Shown here: piece after piece, positions 3,769-16,114 of the stretch
How positions within the stretch are numbered: the first letter of the stretch is position 1
Layout of the letters: every line of letters starts with the position of its first letter
Source of the DNA: Candidatus Iainarchaeum sp.
GTDB lineage: Archaea > Iainarchaeota > Iainarchaeia > Iainarchaeales > GCA-2688035
NCBI GenBank assembly: GCA_017610175.1
Contig: JAFCCO010000005.1
Span: forward strand, 1 to 64,000
DNA length: 64,000 nucleotides
Direction: 5' to 3'
The notes under the pieces: model-generated
What the model was told of the DNA's origin: nothing
Databases searched by the model: none
What the model saw: the letters and a program-made list of their open reading frames with translations, nothing else
Program-made: the position numbers and the translations under genes

Positions 3769-3776
3769 TTTTAAAT
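3769..3776 (+). promoter_or_regulatory. Putative TATA box of the leu/ilv leader-operon
   Basis: AAGCCTTTTAAATCC; about 40 nt upstream of leader ATG 3816, consistent with a short 5' UTR. Confidence 0.55.
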
Positions 3777-3815
3777 CCCTTAAGCACTATAGATAATAGC
3801 AATACAGTGGTATTT

Positions 3816-3902
3816 ATGAAAACAGCAGGTAGTTTTGGAACAAAGTCTACGAATTACTTACTTAGCCTGCTCGTTTTGCTTCTGGTTTTGCTGTTAGGAT
3901 AA
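3816..3902 (+). CDS. Putative leucine/valine-rich leader peptide (28 aa): MKTAGSFGTKSTNYLLSLLVLLLVLLLG
   Basis: Read directly; 10 Leu + 2 Val among the last 14 residues; sits between a TATA-like box and leuA, followed by overlapping hairpins. Confidence 0.75.
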   Translation: MKTAGSFGTKSTNYLLSLLVLLLVLLLG

Positions 3903-3935
3903 GCACTTCCTAGCTAAAGCAAATTTTGGAAGTGC
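3887..3935 (+). promoter_or_regulatory. Putative attenuator: two mutually exclusive hairpins downstream of the Leu leader
   Basis: Hairpin 1: 3887-3892+3893-3899 pairs with 3918-3923+3908-3914 (13 bp, 3-nt bulge, one G-U). Hairpin 2: GCACTTCC 3903-3910 with GGAAGTGC 3928-3935 (8 bp perfect), followed by GGTTTT. They share 3908-3910. Confidence 0.65.
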
Positions 3936-3979
3936 GGTTTTAAAACTGGAGAAGTCATTAGATTCGAGGTGTTTTGGAA

Positions 3980-5497
3980 ATGAGAAAAATAAGAGTTTTT
4001 GATACAACGCTCAGAGATGGGGAGCAGAGCCCTGGTGCGACTCTTACGCATCGCGAGAAAATAATGATTGCAAGGCAGCTTGAAAAGCTTGGTGTTGATG
4101 TAATCGAGGCGGGTTTTCCTATCGCGAGCGATGACGATTTCAAGGCGGTTAAGGAGATTGCGGAAACCGTTAAGGGGCTGAGCGTGTGCGGTCTTGCCCG
4201 CGCAATGCCAAAGGACATTGACAGGGCCTGGGAGGCCATTCAGAACGCCAAAAAACCAAGGATACACACTTTTATGTCGACAAGCGACGTGCATTTAAAG
4301 CACCAATTCAAAAAAACCAGGGATGAGGCCCTTGAAATGAGTGTTGAGGCTGTAAAACTTGCCTGTTCCTACTGTAAGGATGTGGAGTTTTCGCCAATGG
4401 ATGCCACGCGCACCGACCCCAAATTCCTTTTCCAGGTGCTTGAAAAAGTGATTGAAGCCGGTGCGGGGACGGTTAACATTCCTGACACTGTTGGGTATGC
4501 CCAGCCAGTGGAATTCGGCAAGCTCATTAAGAACATTTGCGATAACGTTCCGGGCATTGAGAATGCGGTAGTTAGCGTGCACTGCCACAACGATTTGGGG
4601 CTTGCGGTCGCAAACAGCCTTGAGGCGGTGCGCAACGGCGCCGGCCAGGTTGAGTGCACTGTAAATGGCATTGGCGAGCGTGCAGGAAATGCGTCCCTTG
4701 AAGAAATCGCGATGAACCTGCATACCCGCAGTGAATTTTTTGGGGTCTGCACAAGCATTAACCTTAAGGAAATTTATCCTTCATCGCTGATGGTCAGCAA
4801 CCTTACAGGGATGGCGGTTCAGCGCAACAAGGCAATTGTTGGCAAAAACGCATTTGCGCACGAGGCCGGAATTCACCAGCACGGTGTTCTTGCAAACTCA
4901 CAAACTTATGAGATAATGGACCCTGAGATGATTGGCAATAAAAGCCAGTTTGTGCTCGGCAAGCATTCCGGCAAGCACGCAACAAAGAAGGTTCTCAAGG
5001 ACATGGGTTTTGATCTCTCAGACGACGAGCTCAAACAGGTAACCAACAGGATAAAACAGCTTGCAGACAAGCAGAAAACCGTGCTCGATGAAGACATTGT
5101 TGCAATTGCAGGAGATGTCACACAGCAGCTTAAGAAAGAGGAAAAGCGAATTGTTCTTGAGGAATTTCGCATTGAAACAGGCAACAAGGTAAAGCCCACT
5201 GCAATCCTCAAGCTTATAATCGACGGAAAGAAAGTTGAGGCAAAGGGAACAGGGGTTGGGCCTGTTGACGCAATAACCAACGCACTGCAATCAGTTTCAC
5301 CCACAAAGGTTTCGCTCCACGAATACCACCTCAACGCAATAACAGGCGGAACAGACGCACTTGCGGACGTTGAGGTAAAAATAGTCAACGGGTCGGGAAA
5401 GGTCCACAATGCAGAGGCAATCAATGAGGATGTACTAACGGCAAGCACGAACGCCATCATAAAGGGCATAAACAAGGCGCTTGCCAACAAAAAGTAG
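3980..5497 (+). CDS. leuA: 2-isopropylmalate synthase
   Basis: RVFDTTLRDGEQSPGATL; HCHNDLGLAVANSL; regulatory LeuA dimer domain at C-terminus; GAGGTG upstream of ATG 3980. Confidence 0.93.
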   Translation: MRKIRVFDTTLRDGEQSPGATLTHREKIMIARQLEKLGVDVIEAGFPIASDDDFKAVKEIAETVKGLSVCGLARAMPKDIDRAWEAIQNAKKPRIHTFMSTSDVHLKHQFKKTRDEALEMSVEAVKLACSYCKDVEFSPMDATRTDPKFLFQVLEKVIEAGAGTVNIPDTVGYAQPVEFGKLIKNICDNVPGIENAVVSVHCHNDLGLAVANSLEAVRNGAGQVECTVNGIGERAGNASLEEIAMNLHTRSEFFGVCTSINLKEIYPSSLMVSNLTGMAVQRNKAIVGKNAFAHEAGIHQHGVLANSQTYEIMDPEMIGNKSQFVLGKHSGKHATKKVLKDMGFDLSDDELKQVTNRIKQLADKQKTVLDEDIVAIAGDVTQQLKKEEKRIVLEEFRIETGNKVKPTAILKLIIDGKKVEAKGTGVGPVDAITNALQSVSPTKVSLHEYHLNAITGGTDALADVEVKIVNGSGKVHNAEAINEDVLTASTNAIIKGINKALANKK

Positions 5498-5506
5498 GTG
5501 AATGCA

Positions 5507-7204
5507 ATGCAGGGAAGTGAAGCAATAATAAAAACCCTTATTGAGGAAAAGGCGGAGCACGTGTTCGGTTTTCCGGGCGGAGCGGTAATGCCAATCTACG
5601 ACAAGTTTCTTGACTACGAAGATGAGTTAAGGCACATTCTTGTAAGGCACGAGCAGGCGGCGGCGCACGCAGCAGACGGCTATGCAAAGATTTCGGGAAA
5701 GGCAGGAGTCTGCCTTGCAACCTCCGGGCCAGGGGCAACAAACCTTGTGACCGGCATAATGACCGCTTACATGGATTCGGTTCCGCTCATTGCACTCGCC
5801 GGAAACGTTCCAACTTCGCTTCTTGGAAACGACGCTTTCCAGGAGTCCGACATGATGGGAATCACGATGCCAATTACAAAGCACAATTTCCAAATTCGCG
5901 ACCCGAACACAATCCGCTCAAAGATCAGGAAGGCATTCAAGATTGCACAGCACGGCAGGCCAGGTCCTGTCTATATTGACATTCCAAAGGACTCGCAGGT
6001 AAAGGAGGTAACAAAGGACATTAACAACGTGCTAATTGCAGGATTCAAGCCGGTTCTTAAGGGCCACCCTGTTCAGATAAAAAAGGCGGCCGAAATGATT
6101 CTCAAGGCAGAGTGCCCGGTAATTCTTGCAGGCGGCGGAATTCTTATCTCAAAGGCTTACGCTGAACTTGGCGAGCTTGCGGAGGGAATGAGCATTCCTG
6201 TAACCACCACTTTCATGGGGAAAAGCTGTTTTCCCGAAACACATCCCCTTTGCCTCGGAGTTATTGGGATGCACGGCAGAAAGGTTGCAAACTACGCAAT
6301 CGGAAATGCTGATCTAATAATCAATGTTGGCTGCAGGTTCAGTGACAGGATAACGGGTGACCTCAAGACATTTGCAAGTGGCGCAAAAATAATCCACATA
6401 GACATTGACAGCGCCGAAATAGGCAAGAACGTAAAAATCGACCTTCCGATTGTGGGTGATGCAAAGCAGGTTCTTTCCGAGCTTGTTAAGATCATAAAAT
6501 TAAAGGCCCCGAAGAGCAGGGGGTGGGCTGAAAAAATCAAGAAATTTATCAAGGACTGCGACTGCGCGATTGACGTGAAGGGAAGCCCGCTTGATCCCAG
6601 AAAAATAATGTTCGAGCTCAACAGAATTCTTGGAAAAGAGGACATTCTTTCAACCGGAACCGGGCAGCACCAGATGTTTGCCATGCACTTTGTTAAAAGG
6701 GACGTGCCGCACACGTTCATTTCAAGCGGGGGGGCGGGCACAATGGGATACGGTTTTCCCGCGGCAATTGGCGCAAAGGTTGCAAAGCCGGATGCACAGG
6801 TTTTTGACCTTGATGGGGACGGCTCTTTTGCAATGGTTATTCAGGAGCTTGCAACCTGCAAGGAAGAAAATATAAAGGTTATTCCCGTAATTATGAACAA
6901 CGCATACCTTGGAATGGTCAGGCAGTGGATGGAGCTATTCGTTGACAAAAGATACAGTGGAGTGCACCTCAAAAGGACCCCTGACTTTGCAAAGGTGGCA
7001 GAAGCCTACGGGCTTGAGGGAATAACGGTTGAGCGTGACTCAGAGCTTCGCGAGGCGTTTGAACGCGCTTACAAGGCGGACTCAACGGTCTTAATTGATG
7101 TGATTACACAGGAAGAGGCAAACATCCTCCCAATGTTTTCGGCGGGGGCAAACAATGTTGACATGTTTGGTGGATGCATTCAAAACAAGGGAGAACTGTT
7201 TTAG
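5507..7204 (+). CDS. ilvB: Acetolactate synthase large subunit
   Basis: ThDP enzyme: VFGFPGGAVMPIYD, GPGATNLVTGI, GDGSFAMVIQELAT. Confidence 0.95.
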   Translation: MQGSEAIIKTLIEEKAEHVFGFPGGAVMPIYDKFLDYEDELRHILVRHEQAAAHAADGYAKISGKAGVCLATSGPGATNLVTGIMTAYMDSVPLIALAGNVPTSLLGNDAFQESDMMGITMPITKHNFQIRDPNTIRSKIRKAFKIAQHGRPGPVYIDIPKDSQVKEVTKDINNVLIAGFKPVLKGHPVQIKKAAEMILKAECPVILAGGGILISKAYAELGELAEGMSIPVTTTFMGKSCFPETHPLCLGVIGMHGRKVANYAIGNADLIINVGCRFSDRITGDLKTFASGAKIIHIDIDSAEIGKNVKIDLPIVGDAKQVLSELVKIIKLKAPKSRGWAEKIKKFIKDCDCAIDVKGSPLDPRKIMFELNRILGKEDILSTGTGQHQMFAMHFVKRDVPHTFISSGGAGTMGYGFPAAIGAKVAKPDAQVFDLDGDGSFAMVIQELATCKEENIKVIPVIMNNAYLGMVRQWMELFVDKRYSGVHLKRTPDFAKVAEAYGLEGITVERDSELREAFERAYKADSTVLIDVITQEEANILPMFSAGANNVDMFGGCIQNKGELF

Positions 7205-7217
7205 GGAAGGGGTTTGA

Positions 7218-7730
7218 ATGGATGAATCAAGGGAAATTGGCGGAAAAACAAAGAAACACATAATCGGAATTATGGTTGACGACCACCCGGGCGTAATGTC
7301 AAAGCTTTCCTCGCTTTTCGCAAGGCGCGGATTCAACATTGACAGCATTGTTGTCGGAAAAAGCGCCCACCCAGGAATGGCACACATTGTGATAAGCGTT
7401 GTTGCCAACGACGAAATCATTGAACAGCTTGAAAAACAGGTAAACAAGCTAATTGACGTTGCAAAGATTACAGACCTTGCGCCAGCGCAAAGCGTGATAA
7501 GGGAACACTGCCTTGTGAAAGTGGCCTCAACGGAAAAATCAAGGGAGGACATAATTAACATCGCAAAAATCCACAAGGCAAAGGTCCTTGACATTAACCA
7601 CTCAAGCATAATTGTTGAAATAGTCGGCAGGCCAGCCAAAATAGAAAATTTTATTGAGCTAATGGGAAAGTACGGAATTAAGGAAGTAAGCAGAACAGGA
7701 ATTAATGCCCTGCAAAGGGGAACAAAATAA
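7218..7730 (+). CDS. ilvN: Acetolactate synthase small (regulatory) subunit
   Basis: ACT domain HIIGIMVDDHPGVMSKLSSLFARRGFNIDSI; adjacent to ilvB. Confidence 0.93.
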   Translation: MDESREIGGKTKKHIIGIMVDDHPGVMSKLSSLFARRGFNIDSIVVGKSAHPGMAHIVISVVANDEIIEQLEKQVNKLIDVAKITDLAPAQSVIREHCLVKVASTEKSREDIINIAKIHKAKVLDINHSSIIVEIVGRPAKIENFIELMGKYGIKEVSRTGINALQRGTK

Positions 7731-7795: not shown

Positions 7796-8779
7796 ATGAA
7801 AATATATCACGAAAACGACGCATCAATCGATGCACTTAAGGACAAAACAATTGCCATAATCGGCTACGGAAACCAGGGAAGGCCTCAGGCACTGTGCCTC
7901 AGGGATTCCGGCTTGAAAGTAATCGTCGGCTCAATAAAGGACGCATCCTTTGACAAGGCCGTTGAAGACGGTTTTGAAACATTTCCAATAGCGGAAGCCG
8001 CGGAAAAAGCGGACCTTGTCCAGATTCTTCTGCCTGACGAGTTCCAGGGAGTGGTTTACGCAAGCGAAATCGCGCCGCACATGAAGGAAGGCAAGATTCT
8101 CTGCTGCTCACACGGCTTTAGCATTGTGTTCAAGGGAATTGTGCCCCCCGAAAACGTTGACGTAATAATGGCAGCACCAAAGAGCCCGGGCAGCGAGGAA
8201 AGAAAGGAATACGTGCGCGGATTCGGAGTGCCGGGCCTCATAGCCGTTTACAAGGACGCAAGCGGAAAGGCAAGGGATTATGCACTTGCATACGCAAAAG
8301 GAATGGGCTACACAAGAGCAGGGGTAATTGAATGCACGTTTCCCCAGGAAACATACTCGGACCTGTTTGGGGAACAGACAGTTCTATGCGGCGGAGTAAC
8401 AGAGCTCATGAGAGCTGGCTTTGAAACACTCACCGAAGCAGGCTACCCGCCTGAAATCGCATACTTTGAATGCATCAACGAGCTCAAGCTCATCGTGGAC
8501 ATGATTTACGAGGGCGGATTCGAATTGATGTGGAAGCGCGTAAGCAACACCGCAGAATACGGCGGAAGGACACGCGGCCCAAAGGTAATTGGCAAGGAAT
8601 CAAAGGAAGCAATGAAGCAGCTTCTCAAAGACATTGAGTCAGGCGCTTTTGCAAAAGAGTGGGTTGACGAGGTCAAAGCAGGAATGCCAAACCTCAACAA
8701 GCTCCGCGAAGAGCAGGCAAAGGAACCGGTCGAAACAATCGGCAAGGAAATCAGAGCCCTCTTTGAAAAAAAGGAATAA
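7796..8779 (+). CDS. ilvC: Ketol-acid reductoisomerase
   Basis: [46 protein letters not shown]. Confidence 0.95.
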
Positions 8780-15954: not shown

Positions 15955-16059
15955 ATGGAATGTGCAAACGCATTTATTGGTGCTGAAACTTTTCTTTTCA
16001 AAGTTTGCGCAGCCGTGGGCAAGTACTTTGCTTATTGGTATTTTTATTTTTTTGAGTAG
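15955..16059 (+). CDS. Putative aromatic-residue-rich leader peptide (34 aa): MECANAFIGAETFLFKVCAAVGKYFAYWYFYFFE
   Basis: Read directly; 9 of 10 residues 24-33 are Phe/Tyr/Trp; immediately precedes the aromatic biosynthesis operon and overlapping hairpins. Confidence 0.8.
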   Translation: MECANAFIGAETFLFKVCAAVGKYFAYWYFYFFE

Positions 16060-16114
16060 GCACCAGGCTACTCTCTGTTTTTAGCTTGGTTGCCAGGACT
16101 AACAAACGGAGAGT
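16060..16114 (+). promoter_or_regulatory. Putative attenuator: two mutually exclusive hairpins after the aromatic leader
   Basis: Hairpin A: GCACCAGGCTA 16060-16070 with TAGCTTGGTTGC 16082-16093 (11 bp, one bulge, one G-U). Hairpin B: 16070-16084 with 16099-16114 (ACTCTCTGTTT/AAACGGAGAGT plus TTAG/CTAA; one bulge, one G-U), with further pairing inside the loop. They share 16070 and 16082-16093. Confidence 0.7.

Follow-up and report, generated by a model that had tools for sequence, protein, structure and literature searches.

We postulate that the leader of the leu/ilv operon in this archaeal genome is a ribosome-sensing, leucine-responsive attenuator, and to this full explanation we assign a probability of roughly 0.6. 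The narrower proposal that the leader senses leucine is very probable, and comparison among loci strongly supports an attenuation-type leader. The stretch of DNA analysed (64,000 nucleotides, hereafter the window) belongs to a genome of 1.24 Mb, in which FttA (TIGR03675) and the archaeal Dph6 serve as archaeal markers and which we suspect to be of a DPANN lineage such as Iainarchaeota. The features of the leader and of the operon are the following:

3770-3775, + strand: TATA box TTTAAA of a leader-specific promoter, 46 nt 5' of the leader ATG and conserved in relatives
3816-3902, + strand: leader ORF MKTAGSFGTKSTNYLLSLLVLLLVLLLG with its stop codon (TAA, 3900-3902), 28 codons, 10 Leu among the final 14
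3887-3899, + strand: 5' arm of predicted hairpin H1, formed by the last leader codons
3903-3910, + strand: 5' arm of predicted hairpin H2, GCACTTCC, its first base directly after the stop codon
3908-3923, + strand: 3' arm of H1, pairing with 3887-3899
3924-3927, + strand: first U-tract (UUUU), adjoining H1 and within the H2 loop, a candidate U-tract/FttA termination site
3928-3935, + strand: 3' arm of H2, GGAAGTGC, pairing with 3903-3910
3938-3941, + strand: second U-tract (UUUU), 3' of H2, kept mainly in the own family
3950-3961, + strand: element AGAAGTCATTAG, conserved in the alignment of leaders, about 15 nt 3' of H2
3966-3971, + strand: Shine-Dalgarno sequence GAGGTG of leuA, as read from the sequence
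3980-5497, + strand: leuA, 2-isopropylmalate synthase (NF002086, 719 bits; TIGR00973, 673 bits; both above cut-off)
5498-7204, + strand: ilvB, acetolactate synthase large subunit (TIGR00118, above cut-off)
7218-7730, + strand: ilvN, acetolactate synthase small subunit (TIGR00119, above cut-off)
7796-8779, + strand: ilvC, ketol-acid reductoisomerase (TIGR00465, above cut-off)

The gene ilvE lies 5' of the leader, and 3' of it the operon runs in the order leuA-ilvBN-ilvC-ilvD-leuCDB; leuA, ilvB, ilvN, ilvC and ilvE were named by NCBIfam, and ilvD, leuC, leuD and leuB by inspection.

In the mechanism that we propose, scarcity of Leu-tRNA would stall the ribosome in the Leu cluster, some 4-9 codons before the stop, where it would mask the 5' arm of H1 and leave that of H2 free. 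H2 would then fold with the U-tract in its loop, and transcription would proceed into leuA. With ample leucine the ribosome would reach the stop codon and cover the 5' arm of H2, so that H2 could not form and the exposed U-tract or U-tracts would direct archaeal termination (U-tract plus FttA/aCPSF1), the OFF state. If the leader were not translated at all, H1, which is transcribed first, would block H2, again giving OFF.

The leader ORF, whose peptide ends in LLSLLVLLLVLLLG, is exceptional in its own genome, being the single Leu-dense mini-ORF (at least 7 Leu in the final 12 residues) among 1932 scanned in own-genome DNA, while 0.05 such ORFs would be expected per 64 kb strand of resampled DNA. 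A Leu-cluster ORF stands 5' of leuA in 17 of the 18 usable loci (leuA orthologues with readable upstream DNA) of one archaeal phylum, here a single class, and in the same 17/18 the arrangement is TATA box, Leu-rich ORF, stop, hairpin and then leuA; in the exception, L012, leuA is found immediately 3' of ilvE. Every leader found has its Leu cluster near the stop, and apart from this cluster the peptides are alike in little, as exemplified by MKQTEILGAKSLICLETLLVLLLVLLG, MSSKYAYKTVSKDFAKPKTVLEKLLLLLR and MYSGRQTIGTSSTLVLGLVLLLK. All 16 leaders inspected carry a TATA-like hexamer (5-6 matches of 6) at 28-52 nt 5' of their start, and a GTGA-type Shine-Dalgarno sequence is present in many. Versions of the 3950-3961 element resembling AGAAGTCNTTAG are present in several families of relatives. 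No Leu leader was seen 5' of leuA homologues from bacteria, whose identity reaches 55%, or of one Micrarchaeota leuA where upstream sequence was present, so there is no sign that the leader travelled with leuA from these bacteria.

Both hairpins were recovered by folding at the coordinates given by the first-pass annotation, H1 (13 bp with a 3-nt bulge) in the minimum free energy structure of 3880-3945 (-16.5 kcal/mol, z -1.3) and H2 (8 bp) in that of 3796-3985. Because positions 3908-3910 are common to both stems and the 3' arm of H1 occupies the loop of H2, the two are mutually exclusive, as that annotation had also held. Single-sequence folds in the window are close to shuffled controls (z -0.6 for the whole leader); the evidence beyond chance is comparative. 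Pooled over 17 orthologous leaders, which are related and thus not fully independent samples in this or in the permutation statistics, folding z scores gave Stouffer values of -9.1 for H2 and, for H1, -5.7 against shuffled sequences and -6.4 against synonymous codons. When the arms of H2 were swapped among loci, own arms paired at -15.1 kcal/mol vs -9.0 for swapped arms, and none of 20,000 permutations reached the observed value; the count was again 0/20,000 in a set thinned to 15 loci, and likewise in the 9 loci that do not belong to the own family. For H1, 160 of 20,000 permutations did so (p about 0.008), and this stem is weak or absent in L006, L009, L014, L015 and L042. The predicted pairing of H2 thus represents covariation beyond what base composition explains, and H1 is less well supported than H2 by these alignments. 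Covariation had been put forward in the first-pass annotation as the check on both stems; by arm swap it is strong for H2 and weak for H1, which leaves the switch standing. A sliding hairpin detector placed the minimum of the mean profile at offset 0 from the stop codon (-13.4, vs an average of -4.4), with one locus, L014, shifted so that the 5' arm of H2 lies within the last leader codons.

A tract of at least four U occurs at +10 to +36 from the stop, between H1 and the 3' arm of H2, in 13 of 17 loci, the window having 4 nt and L009, L011, L013 and L015 fewer than four; at +37 to +63, 3' of H2, such a tract occurs in 8/17. The U-run after H2 is not conserved and is missing from L006, L010, L011, L014, L015 and L042. 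Archaeal terminators are U-tracts for which a hairpin is not required, and aCPSF1 (FttA) binds U4 tracts (PMC8716108); counting from the 3' end of the RNA, FttA has a preference for U at -23 and for a U-rich stretch at -30 to -36 (PMC11616081), a region that in this leader can take in the 3' arm of H2. The host encodes FttA (832 bits to TIGR03675, above cut-off). Since the 3' arm of H2 (3928-3935) sits between the U4 tracts 3924-3927 and 3938-3941, folding of H2 would involve the very region read by FttA. A bacterial-type 3:4 terminator was not detected when the 3' arm of H2 was paired with the 46 nt downstream, 18,358 of 20,000 swaps being equally good. Termination of transcription within the leader is what these sequences suggest, and we put about even odds on an exposed U-tract, used by U-tract/FttA termination, as the OFF mechanism. 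One weakness is that the 3' arm of H2 is made after the first U-tract, leaving H2 powerless against purely intrinsic termination there, so that the model calls for either the second tract or a factor that, like FttA, comes into play once the first tract has emerged.

It is also conceivable, though unlikely, that the leader controls the translation or stability of leuA mRNA rather than transcription, the position of the ribosome exposing or protecting an RNase/FttA site or the leuA start. In its favour, FttA/aCPSF1 has endonuclease activity, and the role of H2 could simply be to protect the mRNA; in the window, moreover, a pairing partner is predicted for the Shine-Dalgarno region of leuA. Against this, H2 lies 30 nt 5' of that Shine-Dalgarno sequence in the window, and the spacing between the leader's stop codon and leuA ranges from 77 to 228 nt across loci, which counts against a fixed, direct occlusion of the leuA start.

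As to which stem belongs to which state in the attenuator, we computed pair probabilities in 17 loci with the RNA masked as far as 12 nt beyond the point where the A-site codon begins, a footprint that is an assumption taken from bacteria. With the ribosome at the stop, the probability of H2 was about 0 in 17/17 loci, and it peaked, at a mean of 0.75-0.87, when the ribosome stood 4-9 codons 5' of the stop, inside the Leu cluster. For the window, H1 is the dominant stem in ribosome-free RNA (0.98), and placing the A-site at 27 to 15 nt 5' of the end of the stop codon makes H2 dominant (0.92-1.00). According to this thermodynamic masking calculation, the choice of stem would follow ribosome position. 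If starvation must raise expression, H2 is probably the starvation (ON) structure.

The first-pass annotation had assigned the states the other way round, with H2 as the OFF terminator and H1 as an antiterminator that an early stall in the Leu run would allow to form, a polarity that we consider quite improbable. In most of the own family H2 is indeed short and perfectly paired, with GGUUUU next to it on the 3' side, and the part of that proposal in which an early stall frees 3887 onwards for H1 is reproduced in the window (probability of H1 0.98 with the A-site at -45 to -39). A late stall, however, masks H1, because the Leu codons, in particular the late ones, overlap its 5' arm. The further claim, that on reaching the stop codon the ribosome would cover about 3887-3910 and favour H2, is not supported, since 3903-3910 is the 5' arm of H2 itself, and H2 is lost at that position in every locus calculated. 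In addition, the six loci named above have no U-run after H2, and archaeal terminators can do without the hairpin that this polarity supplies. The masking results suggest that the earlier polarity is probably inverted; what survives of the original switch is the conserved Leu leader, the exclusive stems and their covariation, and its assignment of states is not supported. A weakness of our own model is that H1 would stay available if the ribosome stalled at the first of the Leu codons.

A separate leuA promoter with TTTTAAAA at 3938-3945 as its TATA box, the leader being then an independent small transcript, is very improbable: this stretch looks like an archaeal TATA box and lies 35-42 nt 5' of leuA, but it is not conserved, relatives having TTTTGAAAA, TTTTTGGAAA or none, and the internal promoter was rejected on this ground. 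Very improbable too is a functional hydrophobic micropeptide with incidental hairpins, for although the C-terminal half of the peptide is rich in Leu and Val and would be compatible with a membrane, the peptides share little outside the Leu cluster, H2 shows covariation and a fixed position relative to the stop codon, and a Phe/Tyr/Trp counterpart precedes an aromatic operon.

That counterpart lies in the window 5' of an operon that comprises, by inspection, a transaldolase-like gene, pheA, transketolase, DAHP synthase and aroA:

15955-16059, + strand: second leader ORF MECANAFIGAETFLFKVCAAVGKYFAYWYFYFFE with its stop codon, 5' of the aromatic operon, C-terminal part KYFAYWYFYFFE
16070-16114, + strand: predicted aromatic-leader hairpin, ACTCTCTGTTT (16070-16080) with AAACGGAGAGT (16104-16114)

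The hairpin has a folding z of -3.1, with 1 of 200 shuffles as good, and absorbs part of a U5 tract (16078-16082); a competing pairing joins GAGTAG (16054-16059) to CTACTC (16068-16073). Leaders rich in Phe, Tyr and Trp were found near pheA in nine relatives (L052-L055, L059, L061, L063-L065). Covariation of the stem was not significant by arm swap (943/20,000 and 3,804/20,000), and for this reason we count only the leader ORF as conserved there.

Elsewhere in the same genome (contig C33, L081:9117-9353), a Trp-rich ORF (..PWLWAWFTP and stop) followed by a tRNA-Trp gene lies directly 5' of trpE. A tRNA-Trp gene precedes trpE in several relatives, and similar Trp-rich ORFs occur in L085, L093 and L094, the ends in relatives being ..FWVWVWRCS, ..CFWAWRLP and ..YAWHWL, each before a stop. 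The tRNA-Trp gene is followed by a U-tract/A-tract inverted repeat, AATTTTTTCTTTTCAAAAAAGAAAAAAATT (L081:9270-9300), and similar repeats follow tRNA genes in L089 and L096. A paralogue of LeuA has (R)-citramalate synthase CimA as its best NCBIfam match, below cut-off; 5' of its gene lies a conserved short ORF of the form M..RRD(L/G)(R/Q)IL with a single Ile (L046, L018, L020, L021, L026-L030), which could be a different kind of leader. For hisG, the own genome gave a below-cut-off match only.

Somewhat short of even odds, it may be supposed that the whole phylum regulates several amino-acid operons (leu/ilv, aromatic, trp and perhaps cimA) by ribosome-sensing leaders without a terminator hairpin, in which a stall-dependent hairpin would hide the U-tract from the CPSF73-like FttA. 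If the mechanism holds, it would represent regulatory coupling of transcription and translation in archaea, and a natural switch that makes U-tract/FttA termination depend on where the ribosome sits, a link that the FttA structure paper left as a hypothesis (PMC11616081). The arrangement also offers a search recipe for other archaea, namely a Leu, Phe/Tyr/Trp or Trp cluster abutting a stop codon, with a hairpin beginning at the next base.

Leader-peptide attenuation is a textbook bacterial mechanism. Like the trp, leu, his and ilv attenuators of E. coli, the archaeal leader has alternative stems and a short ORF whose control codons specify the end product; these codons overlap the first stem, and the second would be free only on a stall. 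In bacterial terms H1 would be the 1:2 stem and H2 the 2:3 antiterminator, with a hairpin-free U-tract in place of the 3:4 terminator. Unlike those attenuators, it stands in an archaeal host, its control codons run nearly to the stop, and instead of a 3:4 hairpin plus poly-U it has a U-tract inside the antiterminator-like hairpin. It would work like a bacterial attenuator but has no terminator hairpin, and so is not a plain member of that class; an Rfam scan of the window gave no match at gathering score to Leu_leader or other leader families.

The actinobacterial leuA LEU element and ilvB leaders likewise place a Leu-run peptide directly 5' of leuA, join the codon run to an RNA stem and are missing some attenuator parts (PMC1262725). 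In the LEU element, which is a pseudoknot, the base stem joins the Leu codons to the Shine-Dalgarno box of leuA (PMC1262725); the archaeal leaders lack this base stem, their last codons pairing with bases just 3' of the stop, with the leuA start 77-228 nt away. The three-hairpin attenuator of Corynebacterium ilvBNC also serves a branched-chain operon with overlapping, exclusive hairpins, which act as terminator, antiterminator and anti-antiterminator (PMC11857589), but its terminator hairpin is experimentally supported and none was found at the archaeal leader.

For archaea, the open-access literature on leader-peptide attenuation gave bacterial examples only, and uORFs have been noted in archaeal 5'-UTRs without an attenuator role (PMC4983044, PMC11456600). 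The closest archaeal likeness is U-tract/FttA (aCPSF1) termination, which has in common with this leader an FttA encoded in the host and may also share the use of U4 tracts, although in the papers found it is described for transcript 3' ends and general termination and not for amino-acid-responsive leaders (PMC8716108, PMC11616081). If our reading is true, the leu/ilv leader would be an archaeal solution to attenuation, in which translation is coupled to a terminator of the archaeal/eukaryal type.
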